Source: Candidatus Saccharimonadota bacterium
GTDB taxonomy: Bacteria > Patescibacteriota > Saccharimonadia > Saccharimonadales > Saccharimonadaceae
Direction of reading: 5' to 3'
DNA length: 56,922 bases
NCBI GenBank assembly: GCA_017514805.1
Contig: JAFWIP010000005.1
Span: 1-56,922, forward strand
Shown here: piece after piece, positions 5,266-16,933 of the stretch
How the letters are laid out: each line of letters begins with the position of its first letter
How positions within the stretch are numbered: position 1 is the stretch's first letter
The notes under the pieces: generated by a model
What the model was told of the DNA's origin: nothing
Seen by the model: the letters and a program-made list of their open reading frames with translations, nothing else
Database searches by the model: none
Translations under genes and position numbers: made by a program

Positions 5266-5697
5266 ATGAAAATTTCATTTAATCTTAAAGTCGAAAAAGA
5301 CAAGAAAATCATTGAAACACGAGGATTTAAAAAGCTTTGCGAAATAGCCGAAAAGATAATTATCAAGACAACTCTAAACTATTACGCAGATAAGCTCGCA
5401 TATGCGAGATTCTGGTTCTATGACGACATCTTCTCTAGGCCATTCTATAGGCTCGCTATCTATAGCGACGGAAAGAAGCCAAATATGAGTCGAGGCGAAG
5501 TGACAGCTATGGGGATTTTTATTTCCAAAGTGGACGTTAATAAAGATAGTGCCGCTCTGCTCTGCGCCGATGATTGCCTAAGCGTTGAATTTGATATAGA
5601 GACAATAGATGAAAGCGAACAGCATATACAGTCGTTCCATGATTACTTAGCAAAAAATTTAGAGTTAGCTTTGATCAACACGGACTATATTGTCTAG
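5266..5697 (+). CDS. Small soluble protein of unknown function
   Basis: A 143-residue protein with mixed charged and hydrophobic residues, no signal peptide and no membrane segment. I recognise no family. The start is chosen at the ATG preceded by GGAGGTGGAAGGT (strong Shine-Dalgarno) rather than the upstream in-frame start at 5200, which would lie at the predicted transcription start. It is a single-gene unit between a near-consensus promoter and a strong terminator. Genes at 36.9 kb and 46.2 kb have the same design (TTGAC promoter, leader, purine-rich SD, orphan small protein), which suggests shared expression behaviour but not shared function. Confidence 0.8.
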   Translation: MKISFNLKVEKDKKIIETRGFKKLCEIAEKIIIKTTLNYYADKLAYARFWFYDDIFSRPFYRLAIYSDGKKPNMSRGEVTAMGIFISKVDVNKDSAALLCADDCLSVEFDIETIDESEQHIQSFHDYLAKNLELALINTDYIV

Positions 5698-9160: not shown

Positions 9161-10333
9161 CTACTTGTCGAGGCCGGTTAAGCGAGCGCAGTGCGCATTT
9201 TCGACGATTTGCGCCTCAAATTTGTTTGTATAGCCGTAATTGCCCGAGCGCTCAAGGATATCAGCTGCAATATCGTAGCGCGAGCAATGGTTGCGAGCTA
9301 GCTCATCTAACGGACTAGTAGTCGAACCCTGATCTTCGTAGCCATGAATCGAGAGGCGCATTGGATTGGCGTAATGCGAAAGTATCGAACGGATAGTCTC
9401 TTGATAACCATGGAAGTTTACTACGATTGGTTTATCGAGCGTAAAGAGCTTGTCGAAATCGCGAGAAGACAACTTATTATTAGTCGTGCCAATTGCCGCA
9501 TACGACAAAGCCGCAATACCAATAAAACGAACACGCAGTTCCGGTACTTCGGCTTTAGCAAGCTTTATCCCCTCTAGCGCCTCGTTTGTCGGGATGTCGC
9601 CGATTGCCGCGACAATCACATCCGGTTCATCATCTGAGGCGAATTGGAATACTGAGCAACCATGTCCATCTTGCAGCTGATAGCGCGCATGATTTATGTC
9701 AATCCAGCGAGGCTGTTCATTCTTATTAAATGTTGTCAGATTTACAACATTTTTAGTTTGATTCATGTAATCCCAGGTCGCTGCAGCAGCCACGTCGTCG
9801 ACTGGGAAGAAACAGTTTACTAGATTCGAAGGCTTCGAGAGCAGACTGGAAATTAACGCAGGATTCTGATGAGTATAGCCATTGTGATCCTGGCGCTGCC
9901 AGCAAGATGTCGAAAGGATATTTAGCGCATGAACATCGTTGCGCCAATCAAACTCACTACTTTGCTTCAAAAATTTTAAATGCTGATCGAGCTGAGATGA
10001 AACGATTGGCAAAAATGATTCATATGAAGTCATACAGCCACGCCCGCCACTAAGAATATGTCCTGCCAATACCGCAAAGAGCGTATTCTCGGAGAGCATC
10101 TCAATAACTCGGCCATTTGGCGCTAAGTGTTGATCCCACTCTTCAATCTTACGGGTCCAAGCGCGGTCCGAGGCGTCATAGACGGCGGCAAGACGATTCG
10201 AGGTAGTCTCATCTGGCGAGAAGAAATAATAATCCTCATAGCGATACATCGATTCGCGAAGGCCTTCACCGAAAGTCTGCGCACTAGAACCATTCTCTTC
10301 TCCTGGACGATCAATTCTCGTAGGCAAACTCAT
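9161..10333 (-). CDS. Phosphoketolase, C-terminal half (split gene)
   Basis: A 390-residue polypeptide equal to the pyrimidine-binding and C-terminal domains of xylulose-5-phosphate/fructose-6-phosphate phosphoketolase. Family motifs are intact: SPDETTSN with the catalytic Glu, TSYESF, WRQDHNGYTHQ and HGYEDQGSTTSP. It starts MSLPTRIDRPG at its own ATG, seven bases after GAGGAG, and overlaps the N-terminal gene by 23 bases in the +1 frame, so translation is probably coupled. Relative to fused enzymes, the linker that normally carries the NPHANGG-type motif is missing. Together with the upstream gene it should form a TPP enzyme that cleaves Xu5P or F6P to acetyl phosphate. Confidence 0.9.
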   Translation of the reverse strand: MSLPTRIDRPGEENGSSAQTFGEGLRESMYRYEDYYFFSPDETTSNRLAAVYDASDRAWTRKIEEWDQHLAPNGRVIEMLSENTLFAVLAGHILSGGRGCMTSYESFLPIVSSQLDQHLKFLKQSSEFDWRNDVHALNILSTSCWQRQDHNGYTHQNPALISSLLSKPSNLVNCFFPVDDVAAAATWDYMNQTKNVVNLTTFNKNEQPRWIDINHARYQLQDGHGCSVFQFASDDEPDVIVAAIGDIPTNEALEGIKLAKAEVPELRVRFIGIAALSYAAIGTTNNKLSSRDFDKLFTLDKPIVVNFHGYQETIRSILSHYANPMRLSIHGYEDQGSTTSPLDELARNHCSRYDIAADILERSGNYGYTNKFEAQIVENAHCARLTGLDK

Positions 10334-11252
10334 GATAAAGCTCCTCAAAATTATATGATTTTAGCCAGTTCTCCAACATCGCTAGTTGCGCTCGGTCAGT
10401 CTTCGCATTCGGAAGCGGAACTTGATGCGCCGCGCAATTCCCTTCAATCTTAATTCCATCAACTTCTTTTGGACCAGTATAGCCTTTTGGCGTTTTCATG
10501 ATAATAAAAGTATTCGGGTTAAGACAATTAAGGATAGTTTGAAATGCTTCAGTATCGGTTCCGTCCACTATGACAGGATCGTAGCCAAAACCACGGAATA
10601 ATTGCAATAGTTCGCGTTCACTGCTTCTACCATAAATCGTAGGCGCTGAAATCTTGTAGCCATTGAGATGTAGAATTGGCAAAACATGCCCATTCTTATT
10701 TGAATCGAGTAGTTTGTTGAGATTTAGACTAGCCAAAGCCGTAGCCGTCTCAAGTTCACCATCACCAATTAGTACGGTGATAAACTTCTCTGGCTTGCCA
10801 AGCGCTGCGCCATAGGCCGTCGCAAGCGAATATCCGAGTTCGCCACCCTCAGCGATCACGCCCGGAGTCATCGGACTGGCATGGCTCGGAAAACCATATG
10901 GCCAAGAAAAATTCTTGCAGACATATTCGATACCATGAAGATTCGGCGTAGCATCTGGATAGTAGTTAAATAAATCACCGTCAAAATACAAATTAGCTTG
11001 TAGTGCTGGGAAGCCATGCCCTGGCCCAAGAATAAACTGCATCTTCGGGAAGCGTGCCTTGAGATTTGCGTAGGCGATATTTATGCCCGGACACGATCCC
11101 CAGTGACCAAGCAAACGCGGTTTTACGTCAGCGAATTCTAGCGGTCGATTCAGCAAAAAATTATCCTGCAAAAAAATCTGCGCAACGGAAAGATAATTGC
11201 AGAATCTGATACGACGGTTGATTTTATTAATATCTATGCCCAACCCGTACAT
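10311..11252 (-). CDS. xfp: Phosphoketolase, N-terminal half (split gene)
   Basis: A 313-residue protein matching the N-terminal TPP-pyrophosphate domain of phosphoketolase: HWGSCPGINIAYAN, GPGHGFPALQANLY, SHASPMTPG, EGGELGYSL and the Mg-TPP motif GDGELETAT. It ends with WLKSYNFEELYHEFAYEN, where fused enzymes (about 790-830 residues) continue into a linker. The second half is encoded by the overlapping downstream gene. All visible cofactor and catalytic residues are kept across both halves, so a two-chain active enzyme is likely. The ATG has an extended -10 (TGA-TAAAAT) exactly six bases upstream, predicting a leaderless message that starts after the small-RNA terminator. Confidence 0.92.
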   Translation of the reverse strand: MYGLGIDINKINRRIRFCNYLSVAQIFLQDNFLLNRPLEFADVKPRLLGHWGSCPGINIAYANLKARFPKMQFILGPGHGFPALQANLYFDGDLFNYYPDATPNLHGIEYVCKNFSWPYGFPSHASPMTPGVIAEGGELGYSLATAYGAALGKPEKFITVLIGDGELETATALASLNLNKLLDSNKNGHVLPILHLNGYKISAPTIYGRSSERELLQLFRGFGYDPVIVDGTDTEAFQTILNCLNPNTFIIMKTPKGYTGPKEVDGIKIEGNCAAHQVPLPNAKTDRAQLAMLENWLKSYNFEELYHEFAYEN

Positions 11253-11258
11253 ATTACT

Positions 11259-11267
11259 ATTTTATCA
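11259..11267 (-). promoter_or_regulatory. Leaderless extended -10 promoter of xfp
   Basis: TGATAAAAT on the minus strand, six bases from the ATG at 11252. It lies downstream of the small-RNA terminator, so xfp does not depend on read-through from that RNA. Confidence 0.65.
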
Positions 11268-11290: not shown

Positions 11291-11326
11291 GAAAAAGGGG
11301 TGTCCAAAATGGGTCATGGACACCCC
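11291..11326 (-). terminator. Terminator of the small RNA
   Basis: On the minus strand GGGGTGTCC, a 12-base loop and GGACACCCC form a perfect 9-bp stem followed by TTTTTC. It is strong and oriented toward xfp. Confidence 0.9.
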
Positions 11327-11470
11327 GTGTGGGATAATAAAATTTAACAGGTCGAGCCGAAGGTATGAGCTCTTATGATCTGTGCCCTGGCAAAAGGCTC
11401 CCACGTAGTTTGAAAGATATGTAAAGCACTTACGTGCAAATACATCGAAAGTTACACTAGATAACCAGCA
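11293..11470 (-). ncRNA. Freestanding small RNA of about 175 nt, family not recognised
   Basis: A textbook promoter (11477-11505) and a 9-bp terminator stem followed by TTTTT (11291-11326) bound a transcript with no ORF. By eye it folds into a 5' hairpin (GATGTA/TACATA with GCAC/GTGC on top), then a stem GTGGGA/TCCCAC enclosing a hairpin with arms ACAGATC/GACCTGT and GAGC/GCTC, then the terminator. It does not show the signatures of SRP RNA, RNase P, tmRNA or a TPP riboswitch. Its size would suit 6S RNA, but the two ends do not pair as 6S does. Because xfp has its own promoter further down, this is probably a stand-alone RNA rather than a riboswitch. Confidence 0.65.
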
Positions 11471-11476
11471 ATATAT

Positions 11477-11505
11477 ATTATATCACTTTCAAATTTAGAA
11501 GTCAA
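11477..11505 (-). promoter_or_regulatory. Promoter of the small RNA
   Basis: TTGACT (11500-11505), 17-base spacer, TATAAT (11477-11482). It sits inside the last codons of the upstream hydrolase gene. The predicted start is near 11470. Confidence 0.85.
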
Positions 11506-12322
11506 TATGAAGGAGAAAATGCAATAATGTTTCTTTCGTAATTTTATCGATTTTCTTTGCCTTGGCGCCAGTCATATCATGGCCGCCGAAAGTTTCCGTA
11601 AGATGAAAAGACTTATTATGCTTCGCAACTTGATGAAGATTTGCTGTTATAACGAGTGGGTCAAAACGGCCATGAATTACTTCCATCGGGATTTTCAAAT
11701 TTACTGCTTCACTATAATTGTCGGCATTTAAGATAATGTTATCCATTGCCTTACGAAATGCGGTCGTATTGAGCGAACGTTTTTCGAAACTCGAAAGCGC
11801 ATCAACAAAACCAGCAATCTGAGCAACAACTTTCGCATCAGTATGGCGACGTAGGCCACCGTACAACTTAGTATATATTTGGTCCTTAAACCCGCCGATT
11901 TCGCTAGCGCGAATAATTGGCGGCGAAACCAAAACTAATTGATCAACAATATGGTCGCCATTTGCGGCATAGTCGATCGCAATTAAGCAGCCCATCGAAT
12001 GACCGCATAAAATTAATGGCGTATGAATCTTGAGCTTCTTAAGCGTTCGCGTCAATACACGACGATAGCTAGCATAGTCATACTCGAAACTCTCTGGCTT
12101 TTCCGATTTTCCAAAACCGATTAAATCGAGCGCGATAAAACGTACTTTCGATAAATCTTTATCCCGCGCTAGCGGCGGGAGTGTCTCTCGCCAAGTCGCA
12201 TAGCTGGAGGCAATACCGTGCAAGAAGACAATCGTAATCTCCGGCTTTGCGGCAACGCAATGATCATAGCGAACGCGCATCGTAAGTGGCAGATGAAATA
12301 GGCTTCGAAACAGCTTTAACAT
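11495..12322 (-). CDS. Alpha/beta-hydrolase fold enzyme
   Basis: A 275-residue hydrolase with the nucleophile elbow GHSMG (near residue 105), an oxyanion segment FLHGIASSYATW near the N-terminus, a catalytic Asp in GRFDPLV and a catalytic His in GGHDMTG. The substrate cannot be told from sequence; esters of lipids or small molecules are possible. The ORF has two early ATGs. The second (MLKLFRS, 12322) is chosen because TGC-TATAAT ends exactly six bases before it, so transcription would begin on that A; the first ATG would lie upstream of the transcript. The gene's 3' end contains the promoter of the neighbouring small RNA. Confidence 0.85.
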   Translation of the reverse strand: MLKLFRSLFHLPLTMRVRYDHCVAAKPEITIVFLHGIASSYATWRETLPPLARDKDLSKVRFIALDLIGFGKSEKPESFEYDYASYRRVLTRTLKKLKIHTPLILCGHSMGCLIAIDYAANGDHIVDQLVLVSPPIIRASEIGGFKDQIYTKLYGGLRRHTDAKVVAQIAGFVDALSSFEKRSLNTTAFRKAMDNIILNADNYSEAVNLKIPMEVIHGRFDPLVITANLHQVAKHNKSFHLTETFGGHDMTGAKAKKIDKITKETLLHFLLHIDF

Positions 12323-12328
12323 AAACAT

Positions 12329-16343: not shown

Positions 16344-16762
16344 ACAGTTATCATTTAGTGTTCATTTTAGATAATTAAGGTGGGTGCTGAATACAGGACT
16401 GTACAGAGGTGATCCTGCAATATGTTTAATGCACATCTCTAAGGGTTGATGTGAATTACCCGCATATTCAGGAGAGGGTGTTCCTTTCATTCGGCAGGCG
16501 CGAAGCAAAAACAATAACAAAGCTACGAGTTCTTATATTTGTTCATAATACATATAACGAAGGGGGATCGTTATTGTCCTCCCAGCTATTTGCTAAATGT
16601 TTCAACCCTGCCCGCTAACTCAATTGTTCTGCATTTATCAGAACAATTTTATCCATATATTTATTTAATTTCCCCCAAGTCGGCGCCAACTTAGTTTGAC
16701 GCCGATTTTCATTTTCTATATAATTATTAGAGCATCGCATCATGTGTTGCTCTTTTCTTTTT
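16344..16762 (+). ncRNA. Structured noncoding RNA or attenuating leader, family not recognised
   Basis: No long ORF lies between this promoter and the ABC genes. By eye the 5' part forms a three-way junction: closing stem CTGAATA/TATTCAG (about 16387-16470), hairpins CAGGA/TCCTG and CACATC/GATGTG, and a possible pseudoknot GGGT/ACCC. It contains a segment AGGTGATCC, complementary to the usual 16S 3' end, before a six-codon ORF at ATGTTTAATGCACAT. Further on, ATAACGA and TCGTTAT enclose AGGGGGA, which can also pair with TCCTCCC. Three terminator-like hairpins follow (16622-16648, 16680-16705, 16729-16753); the last ends in TTTTCTTTTT. It is either a freestanding RNA of about 415 nt or a leader controlling the exporter. 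Confidence 0.55.
16729..16762 (+). terminator. Intrinsic terminator inside the exporter leader
   Basis: Stem AGAGCA/TGCTCT followed by TTTTCTTTTT. It is the best terminator between the 16.3 kb promoter and the ABC genes and is preceded by two weaker hairpins. Confidence 0.65.
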
Positions 16763-16933
16763 ATATATGCCGATATGCGGCTAGCAGCATAATAACTCTC
16801 ACTATTTGTGCGCCAGACCGCCTCTATCGTTCATATAGAGGGTACTCGTAAAAGCCTCCCTCGGCGCCTACGAGGATTACCCACGCCCCTCTTTTAGAGG
16901 GGCGCTCTTATTGCTTAATAATTAAAGAAAAAA
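16763..16933 (+). other. Hairpin-rich region immediately upstream of the ABC exporter
   Basis: Three nested or adjacent hairpins: CCTCTAT/ATAGAGG (about 16821-16841), GGGTA-CTCGTA paired with TACGAG-gat-TACCC (about 16840-16882), and CGCCCCTC/GAGGGGCG (about 16884-16904) followed by a modest T run. There is no clear Shine-Dalgarno or leaderless -10 before the ATG at 16934. This could be a second regulatory layer for the exporter. Confidence 0.45.

Follow-up and report, generated by a model that had tools for sequence, protein, structure and literature searches.

The interval between an alpha/beta-hydrolase gene and the phosphoketolase gene xfp of this Candidatus Saccharimonadota bacterium very probably contains the gene of a real, freestanding, structured RNA. 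A distinct gene unit, its fold, selection on this fold and its separateness from xfp are all supported by comparison with two homologues. The complete statement, namely a freestanding small RNA gene that most likely acts in trans by base pairing, has in our estimate somewhat less than an even chance of being correct. The features of the locus are given below, with positions in the window, i.e. the whole analysed stretch of 56,922 nt.

10311-11252, minus strand: N-terminal part of the phosphoketolase, downstream gene (Pfam XFP_N)
11253-11267, minus strand: extended -10 (TGATAAAAT) of xfp, abutting the ATG at 11252; leaderless-type promoter
11292-11326, minus strand: intrinsic terminator, with a 10-bp stem, the loop UGACCCAUUU and then U5
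11292-11470, minus strand: predicted small RNA of ~178 nt, its ends placed from the promoter and the terminator
11329-11404, minus strand: central domain with outer stem H2 (GUGGGA/UCCCAC), middle stem H3a and apical stem H3b, from covariation and the arm test
11359-11367, minus strand: conserved apical loop (C/U)AUACCUUC, candidate seed, from the alignment and fold ensembles
11389-11402, minus strand: conserved block GGGAGCCUUUUGCC on the 5' side of the central domain, from the alignment and fold ensembles
11419-11445, minus strand: 5' hairpin H1, AUGUA...UACAU with an inner GCAC/GUGC stem, from folds
11477-11505, minus strand: sigma-70-type promoter, TTGACT-17-TATAAT with TG (extended), its -35 within the final codons of the hydrolase gene
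11495-12328, minus strand: alpha/beta-hydrolase, upstream gene (Pfam Abhydrolase_1), the same neighbour in both homologues

Promoter, terminator and homologues of the RNA unit

A DNA search of 101 related genomes returned homologues in two genomes of the same genus, G028 and G040, with 69% DNA identity across most of the RNA and 72% across its 3' two thirds, respectively. The order hydrolase, RNA, xfp is common to the three loci, and the N-terminal xfp protein beside the RNA is 89-90% identical in G028 and G040. Two short DNA matches, one upstream of a tuf-like gene (L005) and one in coding sequence (L006), were discarded as chance.

The RNA unit exhibits its own promoter and its own terminator, both of which are retained in the two homologues. 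The promoter comprises TTGACT (11505-11500), a 17-nt spacer and TATAAT (11482-11477), with a TG ahead of the -10. It matches 11 of the 12 consensus positions and is among the three best in 4 kb, in line with its description as near-perfect in the initial annotation. The TG, the 17-nt spacing and both hexamers are kept in G028 and G040, apart from a single altered position in the G028 -35, and the spacer bases vary between the three loci. The terminator proposed in the same annotation is present, but its GC-rich stem GGGGTGTCCA/TGGACACCCC (11326-11297) comprises 10 bp instead of 9, with a loop of 10 nt, and is followed by five T at 11296-11292. A simple terminator scan missed it because the loop limit of the scan was 8. 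In fold ensembles, its probability is 0.98-1.0 in all three RNAs.

In a genome-wide census, a promoter-noncoding-terminator unit was found after 12 of 183 strong promoters, and several of these 12 units contain tRNAs or small-protein genes. Such units are thus uncommon, not unique. Three further ones were recorded. The first, at 16731-16905 of the window (plus strand), has a TTGACG-17-TATAAT promoter, ~174 nt devoid of ORF, an MFE of -66.7 kcal/mol and the terminator GCCCCTCTTTTAGAGGGGC; a DNA search of the 44 remaining genomes of the genus returned no homologue. The two others are strongly folded and lie elsewhere in the genome (G000), at C11 ~16972 to 16742 (minus strand, L128; no ORF of at least 20 codons) and at C4 67272-67566 (plus strand, L140; a 40-aa frame only). 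Neither of these two matched Rfam where scanned.

Fold, covariation and coding potential

The MFE of the ~178-nt RNA is -54.9 kcal/mol (z -4.5), and none of 200 dinucleotide shuffles is as good. When the terminator hairpin is left out, z is -2.2 for the window RNA and about -1.2 in both homologues. As the terminator supplies much of the energy z-score, it is covariation, not folding energy, that carries the argument.

In the hand-aligned stems of the three species, 77 of 81 stem cells are paired, and compensatory double changes occur in 11 of the 27 pairs; they affect 9 of the 17 pairs of the central domain and 5 of the 6 pairs of the middle stem. The variable bases of the RNA fall largely in stems. 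We also used an arm test, which leans less on the choice of stems: the variable stretch from the first block up to the apical loop was paired with the arm 3' of the loop. In this test, for which the arm boundaries are the analyst's choice and three sequences were available, the summed energy was -36.4 kcal/mol for arms of the same species, versus -16.7 kcal/mol for arms exchanged between species. Shuffled arms gave -19.9 ± 4.2 kcal/mol, and 0 of 2000 reached the own-arm value. Stems that had been called compensatory-looking from one sequence are therefore truly compensatory once the two homologues are compared, which supports selection on the fold of the RNA.

Three elements are constant in the three species: the block GGGAGCCUUU, the apical loop AUACCUUCGG and the terminator loop ACCCAUUU. 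In the block GGGAGCCUUUUGCC, GGGA pairs in H2 and the remainder pairs differently from species to species. The apical loop is mostly unpaired in all three ensembles, less clearly so in G028. In H1, the base of the stem is invariant in the homologues, and the inner stem differs in length and sequence.

These data bear on the possibility that the region serves mainly to insulate the 3' end of the hydrolase gene, with a terminator for the hydrolase message and an internal promoter whose RNA, laid out like a type I 3'-end sRNA, has little or no function of its own. The -35 sits in the final hydrolase codons, the terminator would also serve the hydrolase message, and close relatives dispense with the region. 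Nevertheless, a terminator alone needs neither a conserved -35/-10 pair at 17-nt spacing nor compensatory changes in internal stems, and we consider this explanation unlikely.

The interval had been described as about 175 nt without an ORF. This holds for conserved ORFs; an ATG frame of 33 aa does exist within the RNA, at 11445-11344, and could suggest a small protein gene. However, the same ATG is immediately followed by TAA in G028 and by TAG in G040, so the frame is not conserved. It is the stems that are kept rather than the codons, and the homologues exclude a small protein as the conserved function. A coding role is hence hardly conceivable, as the three species share a conserved structure and no conserved coding frame.

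At the Rfam cut-offs, Infernal matched the RNA to no known family and reported only two tRNAs and an rRNA fragment in the window. With relaxed filters, the matches at the RNA were at chance level (E 0.65 or worse), which bears out the earlier statement that no known RNA family is recognisable. Over ~767 of the 881 kb of the genome (~87%), Rfam yielded tRNAs, rRNA, RNase P RNA, tmRNA and the L10 leader. In the whole genome, which is 98.87% complete, neither 6S RNA nor the small bacterial SRP RNA (RF00169) was detected; the RF00169 search was positive in 13 of 14 control genomes. The RNA described here matches neither the 6S (RF00013) nor the SRP (RF00169) covariance model. It probably does not represent the undetected SRP or 6S RNA either, since most genomes of the genus yielded no copy of it (3 carriers among 45).

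A protein- or polymerase-binding RNA (6S-like, CsrB-like or a scaffold) that does not pair with mRNAs would also be small, structured and terminator-ended, with invariant blocks, and the lack of a detected 6S RNA in this genome fits such a role. In contrast, the folds show neither the long rod with a central bubble of 6S RNA nor the repeated GGA loops of CsrB, and presence in 3 of 45 genus genomes is unlike a general polymerase partner. We regard a role of this type as quite improbable.

Separateness from xfp and distribution in the genus

A TGnTAAAAT-type extended -10 is located a few bases before the xfp ATG in all 30 genus loci fetched, and this arrangement is the same whether a hydrolase, a DHH phosphoesterase or the RNA lies upstream. 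From the spacing between the -10 and the ATG, we infer a leaderless-type start; no Shine-Dalgarno is visible ahead of the xfp ATG in the three carriers. The leaderless promoter that had been assigned to xfp downstream of the terminator is thus kept throughout the genus whether or not the RNA is present, which also backs the earlier view of the RNA as freestanding. Because xfp keeps this promoter with or without the RNA, the latter is probably freestanding and not an xfp leader.

A cis-acting xfp leader, i.e. a riboswitch or attenuator in which metabolite sensing decides read-through of the terminator into the phosphoketolase gene, was considered in this light. In the three carriers, the RNA immediately precedes xfp in the same orientation, its terminator lies ~40 nt ahead of the xfp start codon, and it possesses conserved unpaired blocks, as an aptamer would. 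However, xfp retains its leaderless-type promoter after the terminator, as in relatives devoid of the RNA, and a read-through message would have no visible Shine-Dalgarno before the ATG. Moreover, the terminator has a probability of 0.98-1.0, terminator-less structures are ~16-20 kcal/mol worse, the three-RNA ensembles contain no conserved antiterminator and no shared alternative partner for the 5' arm of the terminator, and no riboswitch family was matched in Rfam. A leader is accordingly quite unlikely.

The phosphoketolase itself is split into two overlapping ORFs on the minus strand, at 10311-11252 (N-terminal) and 9161-10348 (C-terminal, in another frame). The same split is present in G028 and G040.

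Regarding the distribution of the RNA, a covariance model (R1) was built from the three sequences, which it recovers by construction. It gave no further convincing match in 45 genomes of the genus or in 151 sampled family genomes, in searches whose stricter filters may lose weak matches and in which several genomes are incomplete. Weak R1 matches, when inspected, proved to be coding or antisense sequence devoid of the conserved blocks and were set aside as chance. The same applies to a match in an HTH-type gene (L039, E 0.002) and to another that is a plain terminator between two genes (L050). An exact two-block pattern, which is strict and of limited power, revealed no wider homologues in 380 phylum genomes; two viral-contig stretches that match it lack the flanking anatomy, and R1 scores nothing there. 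No second copy was found in the own genome. In these searches, the RNA was found in three species of one genus and not more widely across Saccharibacteria, for which the initial annotation had suggested a covariance search.

In the xfp tree, the three carriers cluster (support 85/76), next to the genomes L013 and L014, whose xfp locus is devoid of the RNA. The simplest reading of these sequences would be one recent origin of the RNA within a single branch of the genus, and the RNA looks like a young, lineage-restricted sRNA gene. Its absence from most of the genus indicates that it is dispensable there. Among near relatives, the named records are for the most part of Saccharibacteria from animal guts.

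In G024, the slot ahead of xfp (L035 1235-1470, plus strand) is occupied by a different promoter-terminator unit of ~236 nt, of the TTGACA-17-TATAAT type, with an MFE z of -2.4 and no Rfam match. It was rejected as a relative, being not recognisably related to the present RNA (9.4 bits, E 0.26).

Possible mode of action and comparison with known RNAs

In the mechanism that we propose, RNA polymerase would start at ~11470 on the minus strand, from the promoter that overlaps the final hydrolase codons with its -35, and would stop at the intrinsic terminator at ~11292, thereby releasing an RNA of ~178 nt. This RNA is predicted to fold into three hairpins, one at the 5' end, one in the center with two tiers and that of the terminator, and downstream xfp would be read from its own leaderless promoter. 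In this scheme, transcription in cells, like the trans action and the seeds, is a prediction. The RNA would then most likely act in trans, with its conserved C-rich loops pairing to mRNAs. Both the invariant AUACCUUC loop and the terminator loop ACCCAUUU, which is rich in C, look like seeds that would mask the Shine-Dalgarno or the start region of a message. That base pairing in trans is the main job of the RNA takes up about half of the high probability assigned to the RNA itself, and it is a best guess, not a result.

The candidate seeds were compared with potential targets in the own genome, using a simple model of 798 ORFs. In favor of the seeds, the loops are invariant and mostly unpaired parts of the RNA. 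The complement of the apical loop, GAAGGTAT, occurs near 3 predicted starts versus 0.76 expected. For the ten best sites of the apical loop, the duplex energies are around the 5% level when compared with shuffled loops. The GCC block reached 5% for the single best site only, and the terminator loop and linker gave duplex energies worse than shuffles. As four elements were each evaluated by three measures, the predicted targets taken together do not reach significance. For the apical loop there is a weak excess of sites, and no target is conserved across all three carriers.

Individual sites were rejected as follows. For thymidine kinase, the best single target, the site falls within the last part of the gene upstream of it, and the kinase gene was not found in G028 or G040. 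A site at a glycosidase gene lies between the -10 and the leaderless-type start, and would thus be outside the message. Other sites complementary to the loop are not common to the three carriers.

A gene at 5266-5697 of the window (plus strand) encodes a 143-aa protein with no Pfam match, whose start region GGAGGTGGAAGGTATG is complementary to the apical loop. The protein is present in G028 (93% identical) and was not found in G040, G032 or G033. The complementary start region is kept in G028, but the flanking DNA is nearly identical there anyway.

As for its significance, the RNA gene appears to be a candidate that is new at the family level, of a known kind. A lineage-specific regulatory RNA that either acts in trans or senses a ligand tied to phosphoketolase-dependent carbon flow is conceivable, although we consider it more doubtful than probable; if true, it would make RNA regulation in a bacterium of the Candidate Phyla Radiation accessible to study. 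Titles and abstracts retrieved in a literature search that was far from exhaustive pointed to no publication about RNAs of this sort in the group. The presence of a structured RNA unit that is under selection and left unnamed by the libraries suggests that annotation misses RNA genes in reduced genomes such as these, which are probably those of host-dependent organisms. A defined sequence, a fold and three homologues are now at hand for testing.

With regard to known systems, the best relaxed Rfam match is ctRNA_p42d (RF00489), which covers the terminator hairpin and U-run only. With 16.7 bits against a cut-off of 50, and an E of 0.65, this is a generic terminator resemblance. In type I 3'-end-derived sRNAs, the promoter lies within the final part of a coding gene. 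Likewise, the -35 of the present RNA is located in the last hydrolase codons, and its terminator could be shared with the hydrolase gene. In contrast to these sRNAs, most of the RNA lies beyond the hydrolase stop codon, in an interval absent from relatives that lack the RNA. RsaE-type RNAs of Gram-positive bacteria are freestanding intergenic sRNAs with C-rich loop seeds. Although the present RNA has no sequence or Rfam relationship to them, is found in three species only and has seeds that are candidates, it resembles them in its own promoter, its intrinsic terminator, its hairpins and its C-rich loops, which could face ribosome-binding sites.
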